From positions 1,805,501-1,869,500 of the forward strand of contig NC_135245.1 of NCBI RefSeq assembly GCF_947623445.1: DNA of 64,000 bases, read 5' to 3'. The stretch comes from Clavelina lepadiformis. Taxonomy: Eukaryota > Chordata > Ascidiacea > Aplousobranchia > Clavelinidae. Shown here one piece after another: positions 5,600-40,900 of this stretch. Below the pieces are notes generated by a model. It made no database searches and was not told the origin of the DNA. It saw only the letters and a program-made list of their open reading frames with translations. Position numbers and translations under genes: made by a program. Each line of letters starts with the position of its first letter. Position 1 is the stretch's first letter.

Positions 5600-8500
5600 C
5601 GGATAATTATATTGAAAAGAACAGTAGATGCTTATTGTTCAAGAGTGTTCTGATGAAAAGCCGACAAACACATGACGCGACAATCCCTAGTGTGACGAAA
5701 TACTTTCTCTTTCATCTTTGCGGAAAATGTAACCAGCTTGGATGCTATTGGAGGCCCAAATTATTTATGAGCGTGAGAGATGAGAAAGGACCACACACTT
5801 ATTAAAATTAGTTCCAAGGTACAAGGCTACACCAATTCCTACGTCGATGAAATCATGTGCAACAAGCTCCCATACTGAATTATACATGTCAGCAAACAGC
5901 AATGACCTACTTGGACAACCACTGTCGCTCTAATTCCACTGCACGCATGCGCAGTAGCCTGTTTAGCGCCAACCGTAGAGATTTCTAGAACTTTTGCCTC
6001 TGAATTACCAGTGTAATTCCACGTTTTGCAATCGAACGTTGTGACGTCATGGTGAAATCGATAAAAGACAGAGGCTAAAAATCTGGTATCCCAGACGCCA
6101 TCTACAGTAACAATAATTATTCCATTTGGTGCACTGTTGTTATCGATTGGACTATATCTCAAGAGGTAGCCAATGGTTGACTGGTCCGTGATGGGAAATA
6201 TCGAATTTTTAAACCTTGCTGCTTAAGCTAGACTTGGTCAATGAAGTGTTGCAATTCCTTGCCTGGTGACGTTAAAATTACTAGTTAAATGCTTTGGACG
6301 TGCCCAACTATATTTGACGTTTTTTTTTCGCTAAATTCTTCACGAATGAGGTATTGTGTTGACGCTGTGGGTCTTGGGCGGTGCGGTTAGGCTAAATATG
6401 CGTATCCAACCTTTAGCGGCAAACCGCTGTATGTTGAGTGTTTCTAAGCCCGCATTATGCGTTTAATATATGCTTGCGAATAGTTTCACTATTCCGGCGC
6501 TCTTTGCTTTGTAAAGTTCTCTAAAAGAAGTCACGGCTTATTATGTATTAATTATATTGATACATCACTCCTTTATACATGTCTAGTTTTCAACACATGC
6601 GACTTTTGTCGATTTAAAAATTTTTTTTTATTTGATTCGGAAGTCGTCGTCAAACGTCGACATTTATTACATCACCATGATTAATTTTTGTCGTCTTTGA
6701 ATTTTAATTTCCAACAAAACCTTCACTTCGCCGTGTCAACTCCCAAGGGGCGTCCGTGCGCGACATATGATATTGCCATAAAAGTGCAGAACAGACGTTT
6801 CAATAACGGAATCGCTGTGGATCTCCACGTGATCTCAGTGTTGTAAAAGTCGCGACAATTTAATACTTTTATGCGGGTTTTATTAGTTTTATAAAGATCA
6901 ACAGCGCTCTTTGTCAAAACTTGTTTCCAATTCCTTATTTGGGTATCATCGCGCTCTCATAAATAATAACAACAAAGTAACCGGTTAAACTTTCACCTTA
7001 TACCTTCAAATTTGCTTACGTCATGGTTCTATTGAGGTCTTGGTTTAAAGTCACCACGTCGCCTATAATTTACGTGATGATCTTACTAGCCCCGAGGCAA
7101 TTTTTATCGGTCCATTGCACGTCACATGCAGGCGATGACGTTATCACAGATTGTTGTCAACGTCGTATCCCAAATAAACTCCTATGGCCTCACAATGGGT
7201 CTTTTGTTACGAAGTAATTGGCAATTGGTCGATACATTTGAAGTGAAATTATTGCATTCGAATGTCCCTGGTTGGCTCAACAATATTAACTTGATTAGAG
7301 ACGTAATTTCGTTGTATTGGTTTTAACCTATAACATTTTGTCAAGTTCAACGCCGTTCAAAAGCCATAAAAGTTATGAATCAATCTTCAATTATGAAACA
7401 GAAAAAAATCAGCATCAAAGTTTTGGGAGTTGCGACTTATTAGCGGAACGAATACCAGTGCTTCGTCCAGTAGACAACATATTTATTTCTCAGACGTTTC
7501 GGTCGATGTTGTCTCGGTTGGAGCCGAGAAAAATGCTACTACACAAGAAGTTGCGTAGCAAAAAAATCGAATTATGAAAATAGTTGCAGTATCGATCGAA
7601 ACATCTGACGAATAAATTTGGTTTCTACTGTTTGGACTTTATAATGTTCGTTTGTGGGTAGAAAAGTATTAAGTTATTACCACCATGCTATTCGCCTATA
7701 ACCTATGCTTCTATATAGCACCGTTTAGTTTTGCATTTGTTCGGTGTTGCGCATGTTTTTGCTCAATCATTCGCTAACCCTAACGTACTAATTTACAAGG
7801 TTTTGCTTCGAGGAAAGTTCTGCTCTTTGCTGTCACTTAGCGGCATTATTTTAACGTCTCAACGCCGCTTGTATAGAAGTTGTTGCATTTGTGTTTGATA
7901 TTCTTTTCTGGAAGTTTCACCGAAAATAACTGTAATTAAGACCCTAGTTATATACTTATGCTTTCTTATAAACTGATTGTGATTCCATTTAAAACACGCC
8001 GCATTCTTTCGAAGCCAACATTAATCAAAAACTTTATACTATCGTTGGGGACTCTAAAGGGAAACGCGTAAAACGGAAGAACTCGTGTGATGAACAGGAA
8101 ACGGCTCACTCAACATGCTGGACCCGAAATGCTATATAACAACTTTGATACTAAAACTTAAAAAAAAAATTGATTAATGATAATTACTCTTCGCCTGGAA
8201 AGATATCAAACTGCAGTAACATACAGGGCCGGGAATTGCCTTCACGCTTATTGAACTTTGCTGATTGCAGCAACAAAATTATGAACAAATTGTACCCTTA
8301 GCGAAACGACAGTTGGCATCAGCGCTTGGATAGTTCTCTTGCTTGTAACAATGGACCAAGAATTAATCAAACGGGAACAGCTTTGGTTAAATAAAAAATT
8401 GAAATATAAGCGCATAATAATGTTTTTCAATTCCATGACGCACAAAAAGTATTCAATTATTTCGATTTACTTGTCAAGGAAAATCTAGGGATGATAAGAA

Positions 8501-27326: not shown

Positions 27327-30300
27327 ATGGCAGCTGTTGAAGGTAGTAAATGGGCAATTCCTTTAGGTGTAAATGTAATATTTAATAATAGCAACAGCGA
27401 TTTTCATGAAGCGTAACTTTTGAGTGTTTATATCTTTTAGACTACAGCCACACTCCTTATCGCTTTTCTAAGCCCAAGAAAGGAGCAGGTGAGCCACCTG
27501 AACCGTACAGATTTTAAATACTACACTACAGTCATTAGCAAAACCTATGCACATGATATTTATTCTAATTTAGACAAAAATGGACTAAAGGTGCCTCCTT
27601 GCAGTGGCCTTTACAAGGGTACGCTAGGTTACGGGCATGCCTGCAAGGCGAGCTTGGAGCTTAAGATTGACGTTGACCAACTGAGGGAATTTTCCCAACC
27701 CTTGCAATACGTGAGCGGCTCCATAACGGTTGATGGGAACGGCTTTCCGTGGTAAAGGAGAATTAGACTTAGACAGTTTAATGATATCGATTCTTCTATT
27801 GATTACTAACGAGTATAGTGACATGTGAAATTAGCAAACTACTTTTTAGAATAATGGATGAGAAACGCTTATCCTACTCATACATACAGCAGCCTATAAA
27901 TTAATTAACAGCCGGGTTAACGCAAAGCTAGACAGGCGACCGCTTGGTGGGCTATGTGTTTGTTTTGGTAACAGCGTGAACAGGAACGAAATGCAGAGCG
28001 TGTTAGACAAACTAAAAACGTGACACGCTTTTTTTAAACGAACAGGATTGAATCATCAAAGGGAATTTATTTCCGATCATTTCCGGGTGGCGTGATATTA
28101 GATGTCGATGAGAGCGGGGCAAACTACGAACGCGCGGTTTCCTGCGACATCAATGTGACGCGAAACGATGGCGTGGCCTTTCAGGGACGCGCCACAATCA
28201 TTTTACGTCTTACACAGGATGACGTAATGTGGATGGCGAACGTTAAGATCGACGTTAGCGGCGAGAGCGTTACGTTTGAGAATGTGGAACGCACCAGCCT
28301 GGTACGTCAGCTACTCTACTCCCTGCTCTAATTGTTTATTTTGTTTAATTACGTTTTTACAGACCACACAACATACAGTAAGTGCGATATAGGCCTATGT
28401 AGGAATAACTTAAATAAATAACTTAAAAGCATTGGACACTTTTTCGTCCATTTTCAAGTTTATGATACGCGGAAAACCTCGTTCCAATGTGCTCTTTGTT
28501 GAAGTTTTTCAGGACCGTTGCAATTGACGTCGATTACGTTGAAAAGGTCGCGTGGCCAACAATAGCGTTATCTGATTTCTATGAAACGCCGGATCATTTG
28601 CAGGAAAGAAAACTGGACGCATTTGCCGTGTTTGAGGACGCAGGGATAAAACTTCTTCACGATCCCGAGGACAGGGATAAAGTAAGTCACTAGAACCTTC
28701 AAATGTAGGGATTTCCAGTCGACGTGACCCACTTAACTGACCCAGCGTAACTTGAGGGTCTCGTGTAATCCCCTGACCCGATAATTAGATTTTTGATGCC
28801 GGGAAAGCTTTGCTTGTTTTCCTGTAAACACCATTGAGATCATTAAGAACTAAAGTCCCCATCAGTATGATGCGCAATTCACAAACCTACAGCTGGAGGA
28901 TCCAACACCTCACAACCCCTGGAACAGAGATGACATGTACAACGTCATGATGGACAACTTCGATGCCTACGAAGGCTCTGAGGAAGCTGACGTCACAATC
29001 TGGTGCATGATCGCAAACAAACCCCCAGACGAACGGTACATGGGGTTCTCCTTCGACAAAGGCGGTAGAAGGGGCTTCGGGATGTTTACGGGGTAATTCC
29101 ACGTTTGACTTATAATTTAACAACGAAAGTTTAACTGTTTAAAGGCATTCTCGTTGCCTATCCAGAAAGTGCTTTCAACAGCAGAATAATTCAAGCTCCA
29201 AATATTTTGATAATCGTGGATCACTTTTGGTTCCAAACTCGCTGTGTTTTCTTTCAGCCATAAATCCTTCAAGGCTTTGTTCGATGAAGCGCACGAAAAC
29301 CATCCCCGTGCAAATCGACGATTTCTTCACTACTTTGTGCACGAATGCGGCCACACCCTCGGCTTGCAACATCCTTTCGAAATAGGTTTGTAGCATCATT
29401 ATACTGTCTGTATTTGAACTGGCCATGAGTTGGCAAAAAAGTTTGAAACTCAAAGACTATAAAACCGGGCCAGAATTTGTATATTTCAACGTCACTTGTA
29501 GTTGAATGCTGTATAAAACAATAGCAATTTATTACTGTTTATGGCTGTACAAACATCGGTTTTGTGGCGATATTCTTTTATGTGTGTCGGTTTTAATCTG
29601 ATAAAAAATGGTTTTTGACGTTCTAGGCCGACCAAATGACCTGACTTGGATGAATTACGCCTGGAGGTATGACTCGATTCATGGTTCTGGTCAATTCTAC
29701 AAAGCATTCGACTTTTCCTTTACTAAGGCAGAGCTTATTGTTTTGAGGCATGCGCCAAGTCAGGTAGCAACAAATCGTCACAGGCATCAGCGATACCTAA
29801 TAAAGCGATCAGCTGCTTGCCACCTTTTCTACTTGTCTTTAGTCAGCTGTAGTGAAAGCTGTGCTAGAGACATAAAGAGATTTTTTACATTGTGACGTGG
29901 TGTTGGTGTTGGATCTCGTATAACGGTTGTTTCATTACATTTGATCATGTTTGTTTCGAGATATTAACATATTTATGCAATTATGCTTCCGCTATCATCC
30001 ATTTCTGTTGCTTGGAATCAATTCACCATTTGTCGTTTTGTGAGATCATAAAGCGAGCTCCAAAAGGAAATTGCCCATAGCGGCAATTTAAAGCAAATTA
30101 TTTAAAATGTTGCAAACATCAAACATCATCATTTACATTTCACCATCCCTGAATTCATGCTGTAAACAAAAAAAATAAGAATTTTACCGATTATCGATAA
30201 TTATCGATTAAACTGGATCCAACAACTACAACAATCTGGCCATCACCGCAAAGCGAACGTTCGAGTCTGAGCAATTACAACACAGTACCTGGTTAATTTG

Positions 30301-33300
30301 TAAAACAATTTTTTACTTTTAACTGGTTAATGCCACGTTGTCTCAGGATTTTCTCAAGTGCAAGCTGCCCCACGTCCAGTGCGGGTGCTACGGCGTTGTC
30401 AAATCGCTTCCTGTTGCCGAAGGTCTGGAAGGAGATGTCGATGACGATGACGTCAACGATGGACTTTCCTTGAAACTCACCACCCGGCCCCAGGCTTATG
30501 CGGTGGTACGTTGACGTGCTTTGACCGGTTTTGTTCCTAATGCAGTTTCTAAATCACTTTTACGCGATCTAGATTTATTATACTTGAACTCTTTTTTCTT
30601 TGTACAGGGAGAATTGGTCGAACTTGAAATTCGTTTGAAGAACTTAGGGGAAAGCCCGGTCATGATAGACGGTGACCTTGACCCGGAAGGTGGAAACGTC
30701 ATCGTATACGTCACTGGACCTGATGGCAGTACAAAGGTAACGTAACAAATACAATTTCATGATTTGTAAAGTAAACATAAAATTGTTCTACTGCGCGCCT
30801 TTCTATTTTTAGATTCACAACACTGTGTCTATGCTTTGTTACAGCGACTGGATTCCTTTGTTCGTCCCATTACCGGGGCTCCAAATGCCAAGCCCCTGTT
30901 TCTTTACCCTGCAGGAGACGGCGAAGGCGCCGGAAGATACAGACAGTTGATTAGCATTGGGGAAGGTAGTGACGGATCCTATTTTAATCAACCAGGAATT
31001 TATTCGGTTAAAGCTGCTTACGTGGGCGGAGCTTCCAACGTATATTCAAGTAAGTTTTGTTGTTTCTGTTTGACAGGGTGTTAATTTGGGGTTCTTTTGT
31101 CATATTTTATGCGTTTTTCATATCAGCCCATACTCTATCATATATGCAAACTTTTTGGTCCTTTATTGATCTATCTCTTTCAAAATGAGCAAACTATTTT
31201 GGAATACAGCTTAGTAACTTGTAATGTCGTTTCTTTTCTATTAGATCTCATTCAAGTGAACGTCGCTGAACCAACTCAAGACGAAATGGACAGCAGCGCT
31301 GTAAGTTGGCTGCAACGAACACATCCTGGAACGTATCGACATAGAAATCTCATAAAATATTATTCTTCCAAGGTCGCGGCTGCAGCAAAACTCGGTGGTT
31401 CTTGTCATGAACGTTTCAAGTCGGTGGAAACCTGGCAAAAGATAAAAGCCTTGACGGTGGATAAGAAGAAAAGTTACGTTCACAAGTTGGTGCAGATGTT
31501 CGACGGACTCACAAAGAATGAAACCAGACAGACTGGCGTTGGGTCGATCATCGGGAAAAAGAGGAAGAGAAAGGAGATCCAAATAGGGAGCGGTCTTCTG
31601 TCAAAGGAGGATTTCTTGAAAGGAACGGAGGACCTCGTCGTTTGCTTTCAGAAGAAGGTAGCTTTCAAAAAATGACGCGCCAGTTCATCTACTCTAGAAT
31701 GCGCCGTAAAAATCCATGTAAGATTTTACCAGTTTTCTTTCTCCAGGGAGTCAAAGGTGACAGCATGAACTACAAGGAATTGGTCTTTGCTCGAGCGAAA
31801 ATCTTCATCGGCAAAGGAGAGAAAGAAAATGCGACCAGCGAGTTCAACCAGCTGATCGCGCATCTCGTTTCCCGTGGAGTTTACTTGGAGGCAATAAAGG
31901 ACCTGAGCAAAGAATTCATGAAACTTTCCGAACCAGGTAAAAAGGCAAAACTGTAATATTTGTCCTTCACGAAAACATATTCTATAAATTTGTTAAAGCT
32001 AATTAAGTCAGTCAATATACAGACCATTTTTCCTGCAGAAAAAATTTAGTACTTTTCCAAATTTTTTCCCGGTTCAAACTTCTGACCCTTAGAGCCTGAA
32101 GTGAACAAAGAAACTTCTCAGTACTTGCAAGCTCGTGTTGATGAAATCCTCGACTGGTATCCGAAGAAAAAGATTAAAAATTCTTCCGAGCTTAGTGGGC
32201 TTGGTCTAAACACGTAAGTTTATGCCACGGTGCTGCAGCCTATATAATTATATTTAATAAAACCAACTTCGAGCTTCCTTTTATTTCGTTATACATGTCA
32301 ATAGTCAATAATCTATCGCAGTGGTTCTCAACCTTTCATGGTTCGTGGCCCCCTTACAGCGACCTTCAAAACCCTTGCCCACCTAATCATCAATAAAAAA
32401 TGTAGATTGTTGATTGCAAAGCACTTTCTACTTCACTACTGAGTGTGCAGTGGCCTTTGCGCCGCTAATTTTGCACCGGGAGGGCAAAAACTTGTGCCCC
32501 CCTTTGCCTCGTCGCTCTTACAGTCTTACATATAGCCCACTGGTGAAGCATCTGCTCGTGGCCCTCGTAGAAAGTCCCAATTCCCTCCTCAATGGAGGCC
32601 ATAGAGCCCTGGTTTAGAAACCCTTCATCTTTCCAGAAATTTTAAGTCTTAGCATGTCGTCGCCGCAAAATGTTTGGATGAGTTTTTACACGCAGCCGAA
32701 ATAGACTAACACTATTTTCCGCCTATAAACCGTTACAGCGAAAGTTTTATTTGTCTTTGAGCAATGAACATCACGTATTTTTTACAGCCTAACGAAATGT
32801 CTATTTTGCTTTTGTTCTAAACAGACATCTTAGCGACAGGTGTCGTTATTGTTTGCCACTCCGTTCTATCTCATTTGTTGTCTCATTTTTATTCAGAATT
32901 TTCAGCCATTTTCGTGATGATCACGTAGCAGCTGGTACTAAGATTGTTCTGCTACTTTTTAACATACTTGACGAAACCAATGACGTCAGTGACGTGCTCG
33001 ATTACGCTGACAGCTTGCAGAAAGGTTACCAGGTCAACCACCAAGTTCTACAGTGGTCCGTTGAAATTTTCATCATTCACAGTAAATTGGCGAAGAAGAG
33101 CGGCATCATGTAAGCACCTTTGACACTTAAAATGGGATCTACCTGGATCAGTTCAACTGGTTTCTGGAGTAACATTGCACTTTAAAGCTGGGGACTGCTA
33201 CAGTGCTGTTATACACATTTCCGCACTTGAAATTCAGTCTTTTGAAACAAACACTATTGAAACTTTAACATTATGATGAATGCGTTGTTATTTAGACATC

Positions 33301-36300
33301 CTTGACAGATATTTTGAAAACGTTAAAACTCAGGTACCCTGTTCCTCCCGCTAAAGACCAATCGTTGATGAGTTTGGCGGCCGTAGTGGTCACAAGTAGG
33401 ACTGGGCGACCGGAGGAGTCTTGGATGAATTATTGGAGAAGTGACGCCGACCTTAATTATCACCACAGGTCATTTATTTGACTTTATTTGTAACTTGGTA
33501 ATTATGTAACTTTGTGAGTAACCCTTTGTAAAGCCGAGAAGAATATCAACTACTATGCGCTGTGCCATAATTTTTTGTTGTACTACGGTACATTTATGAT
33601 ATTGGTTAGTCGCTAGTAGAACACATATTAGTAGGAGAACACTCAAAAGCGCCCCGTTCATTGGAACTATAGCCTACTTACTTTAACTTTCTGTGTATTT
33701 GCAACAGACATTGGCACAGCGTGTACATTGTTGGTCGAGAGATCGGTCCGTCCGTTGACTGGTTCGGAGGTTGGCGTCGCAATAGACCTGAGCTCGACCG
33801 TCAGGGGGAGCTATTTGGTTACATGCACTCCCAAATGCTTGCTCGTTACAACGCTGAGAGAGAATCGTGGGGCTTGCGTGAAGTCCAGGTGGGTTCAGCA
33901 AGTATTCTAAAGCAGGTGTAAGTTAACTTTATGTCTACTATTTCCGCTTATCGTTTAGCCTTGGGATTATGATGGTCGAGATCGGGACGGATTCAACGCC
34001 GGATTTGAGTTCCACAACGACCCGCGAAATTCGGATATGTCGCCGAGACCTGGAGCTTCTTGGCCCCAGAACGACAGGATTAGTTTTCGGCAATGGGAAA
34101 ACAGCTACAGGGCAGCTGTTGCCAATGGAGTCCTTCCAGCAATTCGCGTCCTGGGAAGGTCGGCACCACAAAGGTTAGGAGTTTGAATGTTTTAACGTTT
34201 TCATTTTTCACTTTTGTTCAGCGGTGGTTAAGTACTGCTAGCTCTTTAAAATATCAAAAATATATATCATGGCTGTACTATAATAACCTCAGAGATTCTG
34301 GCGACTAAAATTTAATCGTTTTTGCTTTAACACCATATTTCAAATATTGAAAGAGCTCATATTACTTTGTCACAGGTTTCGTATGGATTTTAATCTGTCG
34401 GGGCACGTTCTAGAAGCTTCGTCTACAACTTGGCAACGCTGGTTCGGAAGCATTCATAACACTGGACACGGCGTGTTTGGGTCAAACCGGATGCTCGGGG
34501 TAAAATTTGGAACAAAATGCCGATATGCATCGGCCTATAAAGATAGGCAAACGTATGAATGGTATTGAAGCATTAGGCTACTGAAAGATCGGGGGAATCT
34601 TACATATTTAAGCACTAAAATTTACGTCAAAAACGACTTGGGTATTTGACCGCCACAACAAAACTCTCCCGCACGCCCGCACGCACGCACGCCCGCACGC
34701 ACGCACGCACTCACGAACGCTGTAAAGCAGCTAATCATATCGACTTTATTTACCGCTCAGGGCGGCAGCTACATGCTGAGCACAGCGACCGCCATGAGAG
34801 ACCCGATCTTCTACCGCTGGCACAAGAGGATTGACGATCTCTGGCACTTGTGGAACGACACTCTGCTAACGGATGTTGACGAAAATCCGCCGCCAATCCT
34901 CATCCTGGAAGACGATATCCTCATCAAGTCCAGCGAGGAACCACTGGACAATTTTGCAAAGTATGACGTCATCGACGCAGGTTTAAGGCGTGCTGTGTAA
35001 ATGCGTTAGACAACAAAGTGTTACGCAACAGACTTCTATGACTGGTTTTGTTGTTTTAGTCACAGCAACGTGATAGTTTCAATTTTACGTCATCATGCAA
35101 CCTCCGTATCCTTTCGCAGTTTCTACGTCAAACAACTGCAGTCATCGACTACGAAACATTCTTACAATATTTTGTTTCTGTTGTTAGTTTCAGATCAAGC
35201 CCCGGATCAGACGAGTTGGTGACTGTCTTGGGTCCGGCCCAAAAACGCTTCGAGTGGGACAACAAGATTGACCACCGGCCATTCTACTACCACATCAGAT
35301 TCAGAAGGACGTCCCCAGGTATCCTGCTTATAATCATGTGGGAACGGGCTATACCGTTAGCTTAGAGTCTAGTAAGCGTATATTTACAGGGTAGCCTATA
35401 AGATGCTATGAAGCTCAGCATACATTCAGGTTGATGATTTTCTTGTCGATCATTTTTAGGCGATTTGAACCTGACCTTCAGAATTTTCATTTGTCCAAGT
35501 CGTCACGTGACTGACCGTAAGCGCTGGATTGAAATGGACAAATTTGTTTACAGGTAATCACGAATTAACAAAACCAATACGTCATCAACTCACACATATC
35601 TTGATAGCTTTTTCACATCTCAACGTTATTATATCCAAATGAACGTCATATACTACTTGACCTCGATTTAGGTTGCCTAGCGACGAAGACACCGCCTCGA
35701 TAATCCGCGCCGACCGTCATTCTTCGGTCATCAAAAGGGAACCGCGATTTATGGATGGAGATGTGGAGACAGGAACGACCAGCGTGGTGGACGGTTTCTG
35801 CGAATGCGGATGGCCGTACAACATGCTGCTGCCTAGAGGAACAGCGGTGAGTTGTTTATCCTGCGTCGTGCTCTTTTGAAAAGGTCTTTGTATCTTTTCT
35901 GGCAACTTGCTTGTTTGGTTCAGAAAGCCATCGCATATTCTGTGTAGGCGTATAATGAGGACATGAGCTTTGTTTCTCTCTAGCAAGGAGAGCAATGGCA
36001 GCTGTGCGTCTTCGTCAGCGACAATAATTTGGATCAGATCCGCGTGCGGAGTAGTTGCGGAAGTTTGAGTTTTTGCGGAGCGAGCGGAGAGCAATATCCG
36101 GACGAGCGCCCGATGGGATATCCTTTCATCACGGACATGGCCTTGAACGGACAACCGGTGAGAGGCGAGAAATATATTAAAATTTTCCTTTATTTGGTCA
36201 TGACTGTGATGTAATAGAGAAGTTGAAAGTGCTTAACTATGACCCACTGTTGTAAGGCGAGAATCGACAGGGCTATAAGAGCGATCCCTAACGCCGCCAT

Positions 36301-37169
36301 GAGCCCTTTTGTGATCCGTAACAATATCACGACCCCATCTGCTGTTGGATTAGTGGACATGTGGTCACCGTGGGGTCAGTTAGGTCAAGACGACGGTACT
36401 CAGCCACGTTCAGATGAAGTGACCGTTTTTAGGTGGGAAACGTTTCTTGCTGTGCACAGAGATGGATTAAAACGGCTTTAAAGAGCGTTAAAACGGCTTA
36501 ATAAAGCGTTTAACGATGCTAAAATCTTTCTTCTAAACACAGGAGGAGCAATATTGTAGGTCGGATGCGAGTCCTCATCGATGATCGAGCAATGACGATG
36601 AGCAACCTTCAAAATGTCGTCGCCGTTCGTTTCCAGGGTCGCGGTCCTGGAGGGGGGTCATACAGGGTCACGAGGGCTTACGTAGGCTATCGCAATGGTA
36701 CCACCGTTGACCTTCGACCTGACATACAGGTGGCCAACATTGAGGTCAATGGTCAAAGTACGTTTGACGTGCCGGAAGGTGGCGTGATTTCGGATCCAGC
36801 TCCGATAAGGTTTGTAGCCTACACGTAACATTTAGGTAATTTTGACGATTCGTAAATCAATCTTGATTCATTTTTGACGTAAATTCCCACTGATCGTGAC
36901 GTAAATTCCGACTGATGGTGACGTAATAATATGCACTGACTCTCAGACCGGGATCCGGCGACCTTTTCGTCACTTTCACCCTCCTGAGTCCCGGAGCATT
37001 CCTGAGTGGGAGGAGGGGTCAACCGGCAAGCACATACGTCATCTTGAACCCCGAAGGAGAGACAGCTTCTTCTGACCGATGGAGCGGTTTTAGCGATGTG
37101 AGGATTTCTCCTTCCATCTACTGCATCGGAGGAGTGATGCAGGCTATTCCGGATGGGAGACGCCGTTAA
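27327..37169 (+). CDS. Metzincin protease fused to hemocyanin-type phenoloxidase
   Basis: About 1573 residues. Exons: 27327-27342, 27441-27488, 27574-27751, 28046-28301, 28505-28681, 28866-29092, 29258-29385, 29627-29763, 30347-30505, 30608-30736, 30845-31049, 31245-31657, 31747-31936, 32093-32213, 32897-33109, 33334-33468, 33708-33888, 33959-34173, 34376-34499, 34761-34996, 35194-35318, 35460-35553, 35672-35846, 35984-36157, 36257-36432, 36543-36809, 36947-37169. All are in phase. Zinc motif HECGHTLGLQH (329-339) has the metzincin form HExxHxxGxxH, with a probable Met-turn WMNY (351-354). Residues about 430-560 are Ig-like. A helical linker carries KKRKRK. Then come the hemocyanin N-domain, CuA (H910, H914, H951), CuB (H1070, H1074, H1105; MRDPIFYRWH) and the Cys-rich beta domain (GFCECGWP, ERPMGYPF). 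All six copper ligands are intact. No signal peptide is seen, as in arthropod prophenoloxidases. The last 220 residues are unassigned and beta-rich. The likely role is copper oxidase activity in immunity or melanisation. The protease part resembles bacterial proteins from memory only. Confidence 0.92.
32319..32623. mobile_element. hAT-like MITE in an intron of the fusion gene
   Basis: Begins CAGTGGTTCTCAACC and ends with the roughly complementary GGTTTAGAAACCC. It is similar at its start to the element at 18741, so this family has inserted in both large genes. No transposase frame. Confidence 0.5.
34671..34719 (+). repeat. (CGCA)n microsatellite in an intron
   Basis: About eleven imperfect GCAC/GCCC tetranucleotides, 40 bases before the exon that codes the last CuB histidine. 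Likely polymorphic. Confidence 0.85.
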
Positions 37170-37929: not shown

Positions 37930-40900
37930 TCATACCAAGTTGTAGTTGACCAAATACTGTTGCAGAATAATGTCTTTTATGGCAGCGAAAACAAAACTAA
38001 TGTTGGTGGTGTCGGTCGCACAAGTAAAGTGAGTGTACAGGGTGCGCTTTGAGTTTTTCATTTTGTCAAAACACTTGCCGTATTTTTCCGAGATGAACTC
38101 TTTGGCCGCTTCCGCGTCTTGTTTTTGTCCGGGGAATTCCGGGAAATGATCCACCAGGTGCGAGTGCTTAATTTTCTCATCGAGGATGTCGGTTTTGTTA
38201 AGAAACAAAATTACGGACATATTTCTGAAGAATTGGTTTTGAACAATCGTCTTAAACAGGGCGCAGCTCTCTGTGAGTCGGTTGATCTTGGGTGTGTCGT
38301 CTTCCTCTTCGATGTCGCGCAAACGATTCGCTCGCTGCCGTGGTGTGGCGTTCGAATCCCCGTAGCGTTCGTGATTGGTCGTCGGGAAAGGCGGGAGAGC
38401 GGATTTTAGACCCTTTTTGTCAAATGGAGGCGGCTTCTGGTTATGAACGGACGAAAATTGTCTTTGGACTGGGTTCTTAGGTGGCTGCCTGTGGGTGACG
38501 AAACGACCGGGCGTCTTAAAGTGCTGGTCGGATTGCGATCTCAGCATCGGGTTTCTTCTGTGGTTGTTGTTCTGCGCATGCGCTCCTGAAGCCTCAGCCC
38601 GGTTAAATCTGTTTCGCACATCTTGGTCGATTTCCTCCGATGGGATCGTCTGGTCGTACCTGCAGCGAAGTTAAAACGTCATGACAACAAACAAAGCGGC
38701 TTTGTAATGCTTACTACAACACAATTTCAACAAACTTCCGTTCAGAAGCTATGTAGGTGCGTACAAGGTTCGAAGCTATTCTTCGTGCTTTGAAAAATTA
38801 TGTCGATCAGTCAACATAGCGTTGCATATATTGCTTTAGCCAACCCTACTCTGATTATTGCACCATAAACCGGAATGTTTTATTGCGGATATTGCAGCAG
38901 CGCAAATGTCCATGAGTGTATTCGTATACGCCCAACTCGGAGAAACGCGCTAGAGATAATGCGTTGGTATGAATCGGCCGCTGCCTACGCAACTTCTTGG
39001 GATATTTATGCTGTTCTGTGACATTTTTTGCAATTATTCGAAGTGAATCTTCCCCAATTCGAAGGCAATGGATGAAGACATAAACACGCTCGGCTTAATT
39101 ACTTAAACTTACTCGCTGAGTGCTGCCAGAAATATAATCGACGTCACATTTTCAAAACAATGAATCCATTTTCGTCGTTCGCTTTTCTGCCCTCCGACGT
39201 CGACGATTCCGAAAACGAAGCGATCGACGTCAAAAAGATATTCGATGATCCCGGAAGTCGGCAACCTCGTTCTCAAGACGTCCTAAAACGAGATGCGGAA
39301 GTTGAAATCACGATCACAATGCAAGCACGCGCAATGGAGCCAGTTGCACCAATATAGTTGCATGCGATGATAACAAGCTGCAACTTCATTGCGGTTTTTG
39401 ATCGTCAAATCGTATACGAGATGTAGCGGTTGAAATAAGAGATTGCTTCGGCGTTTATGCCAATTTTTAGCAACCTACCTGTAAGTTTGGGATGAACGAC
39501 TCTTCACATATTCTCGTGATGTTGTTCAAATAGTAGGAGGCTGAATCATAAAGATGAAACTCGTTTCTTCGTCTGCAAAGACAAAAACGTTTATTTCATT
39601 AAATATTTAATCAAAGTCGGAGCAAGACGACATACCGTTTGCAATCATTGCGCTAACTGCCATTTGGTGGCATGCGATTAGACGACAACCTTCTGCGATG
39701 AAAGCCGAATAATCTCGGTTTCAAAGCTAATTTCTCCTACAAAGAAATCCAGTGCTACAGGACCGACGGCGTGAAGAGTGTTTTTTTAGCTTTCAGGTCG
39801 CAATTGGTCCAAACGACAAAGGCATCGTTTTCCCTTCCAGGAAGTAAGCTAGACTTGCTAAAGTTCAAATCGGCCCCTGACGCCCGCAAACGGGTCACGT
39901 GATATATATGATTCATTTATGAGATCCCAGAACGGGGGGCGTCAATCGGTTTAAATTTTAACACGTCACTATTTTTCTTGATGGAAGAAATACTGACAAA
40001 TTTTACGTCTGTTTTCAACCAAAGTGATTAAAAGCTTAAGGAGTGCACCTTAAGATGTCCTGGCTTGGCCAGTAGGTATATTTGAAAACAAACCTTCCAT
40101 CCAACCATTGCGCATTTGATGCCAGTTAAGCGAAGTGTTTCCTATTTTGACCAAATTTAGCCTCATAACGGCAATAAGCGTGTTTAGGCAAAATATTTCT
40201 CAAATGCCAACACACCGAGCGACTTAAGTAGGACAAGTAATTGCCGGACTTAATATTAGTATAGGTCCTATAATCTGGCATCATACAAGGAAATACGGAA
40301 ACTGGTGGATTGGCAAAAAGTAGCAACTAACAATTCGGTGTAGCAACGCACCAAAACGGAAGAGGAGTTGGGAATATTTTACTTTTAATACAAATAAACT
40401 TGACTTTGACTTACAGATAGCACATTTGAATCCCTTTGTCGTCCCAGAACTTTTGTATCTCCACGCCTTTTACAAGATCCAAATTAGATTCGTCATCCCT
40501 GCTCATGTCAATAAATTTCTCACCGATTTCTTGGTTCTCCACCTTCTCGTATGGAACTCCTGTCAAATATAAGCACGGAATAAGCTTTCAGTCGTTCAGT
40601 GCCTGTAGCCTAATCCATCGCCAACCTTGTTACGGTTTTTGGCAATCGAGGGCCAGGCGTCGAACCACTTAATTATATGTACACTTGCGACAGGTCAGAC
40701 ATAGAAATCACAATCGGCATTTTGATTAATTTAATCGTGGGAAAAGTTTCAAAATGTTGGTTGGGCTAACAGTATGTCATATTGCGTCAAATGAATCTTT
40801 GCGTCAAGCCGCCGACAATGATGCATGAGAAAAACGTGCTGACGATGACATGTTTGTTACAAGTTTCAGAAAGCGGATGCTTTTGTGGTCAATCACATGT

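Follow-up and report, generated by a model that had tools for sequence, protein, structure and literature searches.

A sea squirt gene that appears to join a microbial-type protease to a hemocyanin-type phenoloxidase

In the sea squirt Clavelina lepadiformis, a protease of microbial type and a phenoloxidase of hemocyanin type appear to be joined in the product of one gene, with the junction at about the exon 13/14 boundary and presumably with a single transcript. The gene lies in the window, the 64,000-nucleotide stretch of DNA that was analysed (contig NC_135245.1, positions 1,805,501 to 1,869,500), and is assigned to chromosome 6. A paralogue is assigned to chromosome 4. The fusion is evidently not a one-off: two such genes are present in the genome.

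Results

Gene structure

The gene extends from 27327 to 37169 on the plus strand. In a hand-built model it has 27 exons with a total of 4728 nt (Table 1). All 26 introns are GT-AG, and the frame is closed from the ATG at 27327 to the TAA at 37169. The original prediction was of 27 exons with phases that close from ATG to TAA, and the model bears this out, giving a protein of 1575 amino acids with no internal stop. The final acceptor 28505, the acceptor 33334, and the donor 34499 give phases equal to those of the exons of the chromosome 4 paralogue. Other splice choices at exons 5, 16, and 19 were dropped because the reading frame was not closed. The acceptors of exon 5 and exon 25 have weak scores (-0.6 and -0.9), and at both positions an exon of equal phase is present in the paralogue.

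Exon 12 may contain an in-frame intron of 72 nt (31301-31372), which would change the model to 28 exons and 1551 amino acids. This segment starts with GTAAGT, ends with AG, and has no in-frame stops, and the donor 31300 and acceptor 31373 are among the listed sites. The open stretch around exon 12 is 196 codons long, and when the 11.5-kb region was Markov-shuffled 300 times, this length was matched in nine of the shuffled sequences. Taken alone, the length of the open stretch is not exceptional and is weak evidence. No signal peptide is obvious in the protein, and its six most hydrophobic windows all lie outside exons 1-2. The assignment of aa 22-166 to a beta-rich domain is our reading of a region that overlaps the one colinear with the Motilibacter protein, and exons 9-11 are likewise read as Ig-like, with no family match. 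A separate open frame of 246 aa is found at 37930-38670 of the window on the minus strand; we take its end to resemble the C-terminal part of a G-protein alpha subunit.

Table 1. Parts of the putative fusion gene, with positions in the window and residues (aa) of the predicted protein
Feature	Proposed part	Position	Strand	Observations
Exons 1-2	N-terminus	27327-27342, 27441-27488	+	least certain part; no counterpart found in chromosome 4 paralogue
Exons 3-4	putative N-terminal beta-rich domain, aa 22-166	27574..28301	+	colinear with Motilibacter protein (L015) and chromosome 4 paralogue
Exons 5-8	predicted metzincin domain, aa 167-389	28505..29763	+	HECGHTLGLQH in exon 7, M352 in exon 8
Exons 9-11	acidic linker and putative Ig-like region, aa 390-554	30347..31049	+	aligned with bacterial relatives
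Exons 12-13	tail, aa 554-755	31245..31936	+	exon 13 weakly similar to TPR-like tail of prokaryotic proteins
Intron 13	protease/oxidase junction	31937..32092	+	phase 1 in both paralogues
Exons 14-15	hemocyanin-type domain I	32093..33109	+	R769 in QxRV; F797/F800 in FSxF
Exons 16-20	type-3 copper domain, Hemocyanin_M aa 889-1111	33334..34996	+	six copper histidines, Glu1056
Exons 21-24	Hemocyanin_C domain, aa 1185-1344	35188..36157	+	CECGWP; cysteines 1281/1283/1321/1327
Exons 25-27	C-terminal extension, aa 1355-1575	36257..37169	+	no family found; conserved in chromosome 4 paralogue

Chromosome 4 paralogue

The chromosome 4 gene (L012-L013) has the same domain order as the window gene. Intron phases are equal in 22 of the 22 comparable introns (of 26), including junction intron 13, the chromosome 4 splice sites having been picked by hand with knowledge of the window model and their frames dictated by open frames and tblastn matches. 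Introns 1, 2, 11, and 12 were left out of the comparison, as there is no chromosome 4 model for exons 1-2 and 12. The two proteins are 51% identical in the protease domain and 46% identical in the copper half, and the zinc and copper ligands are kept. The Met-turn and the complete zinc site are intact in both. Exon 13 is joined in phase to exon 14 in both genes, and the bridge between the halves can be followed in the chromosome 4 gene from exon 13 on, the counterpart of exon 12 not being modellable. The sequence of a duplicate gene with a like layout thus lends good support to the predicted fusion in one reading frame.

The genome searches covered 209,060,895 bases in 95 contigs. With the protease domain as query, nine places were found at E <= 1, five of them in the window gene (the fifth with E 0.49) and four in the chromosome 4 gene. 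Hemocyanin_M was found in three places, all within these two genes. About 1.8 kb downstream of the chromosome 4 paralogue there is a long tandem repeat with a 10-base ATATCATACC-type unit (L013, ~7400-7880).

Oxidase half

The oxidase half starts at about exon 14, and the residues present predict that it is active. Two Pfam families match the window protein over the cut-off, Hemocyanin_M (PF00372, E 3.2e-27) and Hemocyanin_C (PF03723, E 3.6e-24). The best matches among PDB sequences are 3ixv (6.7e-45) and 3hhs (4.2e-44), which are scorpion hemocyanin and Manduca phenoloxidase. Alignment with these two sequences places the copper ligands at H910, H914, and H951 (CuA) and H1070, H1074, and H1105 (CuB), so all six of the hemocyanin-superfamily histidines that had been predicted are present. 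The oxidase half also has the FSxF motif, whose phenylalanines presumably have the placeholder role, and four cysteines. Glu1056 is aligned with a Glu of 3ixv. By residue count to the copper histidine it is equated with the particular Glu that is essential in mosquito PPO8, according to the available text of PMC4700666. Hemocyanin_N has no Pfam match at E <= 1, and phmmer aligns the protein from aa 794 onward with 3ixv from residue 42 onward. The C-terminal 220 or so residues match no Pfam family and no PDB sequence below E 0.67.

Protease half

Metzincins are recognized by HExxHxx(G/N)xxH plus a Met-turn. By this rule the protease half would belong to the metzincin clan: it has the zinc motif at aa 329-339 and the Met-turn WMNYAW. 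The original prediction placed HExxHxxGxxH at the start of the protein; the motif is present, and its position is about one fifth of the way in. A domain search of the whole protein, which takes in aa 250-400 and 860-1350, the regions singled out in that prediction, recovered the two hemocyanin domains and no protease family over the Pfam cut-off. Reprolysin_5 (E 0.0036, 18 bits vs a cut-off of 27) and Matrixin (E 0.11, 12.8 bits vs a cut-off of 24) match below their cut-offs. Identity as an astacin was ruled out, as there is no Pfam astacin match and none of the 85 astacin matches listed genome-wide is inside the window. The best alignment of the protease with PDB sequences is a weak one to a matrix metalloproteinase (E 0.16). 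AlphaFold2 was run on pieces of two bacterial relatives (L014 and L015), and the mean pLDDT of 35.1 is too low for use of the fold.

Microbial relatives of the protease half

The protease half appears to be a microbial-type module. Residues ~31-567 are colinear with uncharacterised prokaryotic proteins, aa 31-563 with a protein of Motilibacter and aa 151-567 with a protein of Geodermatophilaceae, in a comparison with these two subjects only. In a profile comparison with the prokaryotic relatives, colinearity extends over aa 163-546. Exon 13 is colinear with the microbial tail, but the match is weak (7 bits, hhalign probability 1-5%). Relatives are found in Geodermatophilaceae, Motilibacter, Nonomuraea, Embleya, Rhizobium, Arthrobacter, Methylobacterium, and Halocatena. 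Outside the two sea squirt genes, proteases that appear to be of this kind were found here only in microbes.

With tblastn, aa 169-553 of the window protein matched six of 72,556 plasmid records, the best from Rhizobium leguminosarum (E 7e-33, 92% of the query covered) and the weakest from Caballeronia (E 4e-4). The Geodermatophilaceae protein as query also matched six records. Among them is the archaeon Halocatena, which was reached only by the bacterial query and not by the sea squirt query. Two short patterns taken from an alignment of two sequences matched 414 stretches in a prokaryote genome collection, and two of these encode protease relatives. Among 396 actinobacterial genomes, three have a protease relative at E <= 1e-8 (query genome included), and none has Hemocyanin_M over the cut-off, with one sub-threshold match. 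No protease relatives were found in the viral contigs scanned. The Pfam cut-off was reached by none of five relatives (L014, L015, L027, L028, L029), and NCBIfam at E <= 0.1 matched none of three (L014, L027, L028).

The best prokaryotic metzincin-like proteins are similar to the sea squirt protein in the beta-rich domain, the zinc motif with an MNY Met-turn, and the Ig-like region. They differ from it in that they have no copper half in the loci examined and a tail that is only weakly like that of the sea squirt. The zinc motif is HExxHxxNxxH in eight of nine prokaryotic open frames, in contrast to G at this position in the sea squirt; the ninth (L031) is a piece cut without the motif. Among 1177 open frames from 11 prokaryotic loci, the protease query matched nine of the loci and the oxidase query the other two, and none of the 11 has both halves together. 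Hemocyanin_M is also absent from both of the genomes and all four of the plasmid records searched that carry a protease relative.

A protein of about 180 aa is encoded 3' of both actinobacterial protease genes (L014 7777-8322 and L015 7574-8113). The two are similar by eye and match no Pfam family over the cut-off. The protease gene and its neighbour in these loci possibly form a conserved two-gene unit.

On plasmids of Rhizobium indicum, three consecutive genes encode an S8 subtilase, an MBL-fold protein, and a hemocyanin-type oxidase (L032 4183-9683 of NZ_CP054035.1, and L033 of NZ_CP054024.1). The L032 oxidase matches Hemocyanin_M with an E-value of 6e-35. The L033 oxidase is partly annotated, and an open frame there matches the oxidase query. 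PADLOC places the MBL-fold protein as LmuA / Avs1a-like, and the gene set is near Shedu SduA. The set may be a bacterial conflict system that pairs a protease with an oxidase.

Discussion

Proposed mechanism

The best explanation, towards which we lean slightly, is that the fused protein of about 1.55-1.58 thousand residues is a zymogen that is cut between its halves, so that two enzymes act side by side. The fusion protein would be stored in blood cells as an inactive phenoloxidase zymogen. After release it would be cut at about aa 755-800, where R769 lies, and the cut could be made by serine proteases, by its own protease, or by a sister protease. The products would be a protease of ~86 kDa and an oxidase of ~91 kDa that remain side by side, with possible roles in immunity or the tunic. 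The release of two enzymes is favoured because the region resembling the arthropod cut region adjoins the junction, where one cut at R769 would be enough to part the two. This residue is just past the fusion junction and is kept in the paralogue.

R769 is 31 residues before F800. In Manduca PPO2 the distance from R51 to the matching F is about 37 residues. The available text of PMC4700666 gives 48 residues between the cut site and the matching F in AgPPO8, and a conserved cut site R51 within the pro-region of mosquito PPO8. The equivalence of R769 with the arthropod activation site is loose, because the spacing to FSxF differs in the three proteins. Ascidian phenoloxidase is assumed to be stored in granules as an inactive proenzyme and activated by serine proteases, in the accessible portion of a review (PMC5465252).

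Alternative explanations

Cleavage between the halves that frees both enzymes would be more likely than self-activation in cis. If the metzincin itself activated the oxidase, by cutting the chain it belongs to in cis or the chains next to it, the protein would be a self-contained melanisation switch; we consider this unlikely. The complete zinc site and conserved Met-turn of both paralogues would suit such a switch, as would a protease that is N-terminal to the oxidase pro-region. The protease and oxidase genes in a row in Rhizobium indicum also speak for it, since they indicate that the pairing of protease and oxidase recurs. However, the prokaryotic relatives are without an oxidase in every locus examined and in the records searched (0 of 2 genomes and 0 of 4 plasmid records have one), so activation of an oxidase is unlikely to have been the ancestral job of the protease, and activation in cis would be a secondary role. 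The review noted above, in the portion accessible, also credits serine proteases with the activation of ascidian phenoloxidase, which argues against the switch.

It is less probable still that the halves are made from separate or alternative messages, with the protease ending just past exon 13, the oxidase beginning within intron 12 or exon 13, and the joint frame unused or minor. Several features of the DNA would permit this. If exon 13 is read through, a TAA follows at 31954, six codons on, and AATAAA at 32256 and 32392 in intron 14 would allow a short transcript with the protease only. Intron 12 has in-frame ATGs at 31672 and 31699 and exon 13 has M698 and M749, any of which could start an oxidase free of the protease. 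The junction falls at an exon boundary, microbes have the two parts as separate proteins, and CinPO of ascidians, at a length of about 790 aa, would match the oxidase half alone. On the other hand, the chromosome 4 gene has an equal layout and junction phase, both genes splice exon 13, which resembles the tail of the protease, in phase to exon 14, and intron 13 is only 156 nt long. Past the junction, the first in-frame ATG is that of M866, which is beyond domain I. About equally improbable is a protease half that has no processing role and serves in targeting, in dimerisation, or as an inhibitory domain that silences the oxidase. The protease family is uncharacterised, and pro-tyrosinases are known to have domains that shield the copper site (PMC4700666, in its available text), both of which fit such a role. 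However, the zinc ligands, catalytic Glu, and Met-turn are intact in both paralogues, and a pure scaffold would have no use for them.

Origin and significance

Two features go beyond the original prediction: a protease half that looks microbial, with prokaryotic relatives that reach none of the Pfam and NCBIfam cut-offs in those tested, and the presence of two such genes. A fusion of protease and oxidase is not described in the titles and abstract beginnings found in the literature search, and the accessible parts of surveys of type-3 copper proteins and tyrosinases (PMC3658974, PMC3334994) mention no protease fusion. One possible history, which we hold to be rather doubtful, is that an ancestor of this tunicate acquired a whole microbial protease protein and joined it to a phenoloxidase, producing a dual-effector immune protein that was later duplicated. 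The bacterial gene set would be a parallel, so the pairing would have arisen more than once. If this is true, a protease and a quinone-making oxidase are combined in one immune protein. The pairing in the two sea squirt genes could give one molecule two wound or immune activities. For insect prophenoloxidase, the activator is described as a trypsin-like protease that is a separate protein (PMC4700666, in the text available).

Comparison with known systems

The protein can be compared with phenoloxidases of arthropods and ascidians and with the bacterial gene set. Arthropod prophenoloxidases and hemocyanins (3hhs, 3ixv, 4yzw) have in common with it Hemocyanin_M and Hemocyanin_C, the six copper histidines, the aligned Glu, FSxF, a GCGWP-type motif, and the cysteines. 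The sea squirt protein adds a protease-type half of ~755 residues in front and a C-terminal extension of ~220 residues. The arthropod PDB chains named phenoloxidase have 684-694 aa and prophenoloxidase b has 687 aa, in contrast to the 1575 aa of the window protein. CinPO-1 and CinPO-2 are arthropod-like ascidian phenoloxidases, as described in the available part of PMC9395347, and the window gene is similar to them in being both tunicate and arthropod-like. The plasmid genes of Rhizobium indicum, like the sea squirt genes, have a protease beside a hemocyanin-type oxidase. In the bacterium, however, these are separate genes and the protease is a serine protease of another fold, while in the sea squirt a metzincin appears to be fused to the oxidase.
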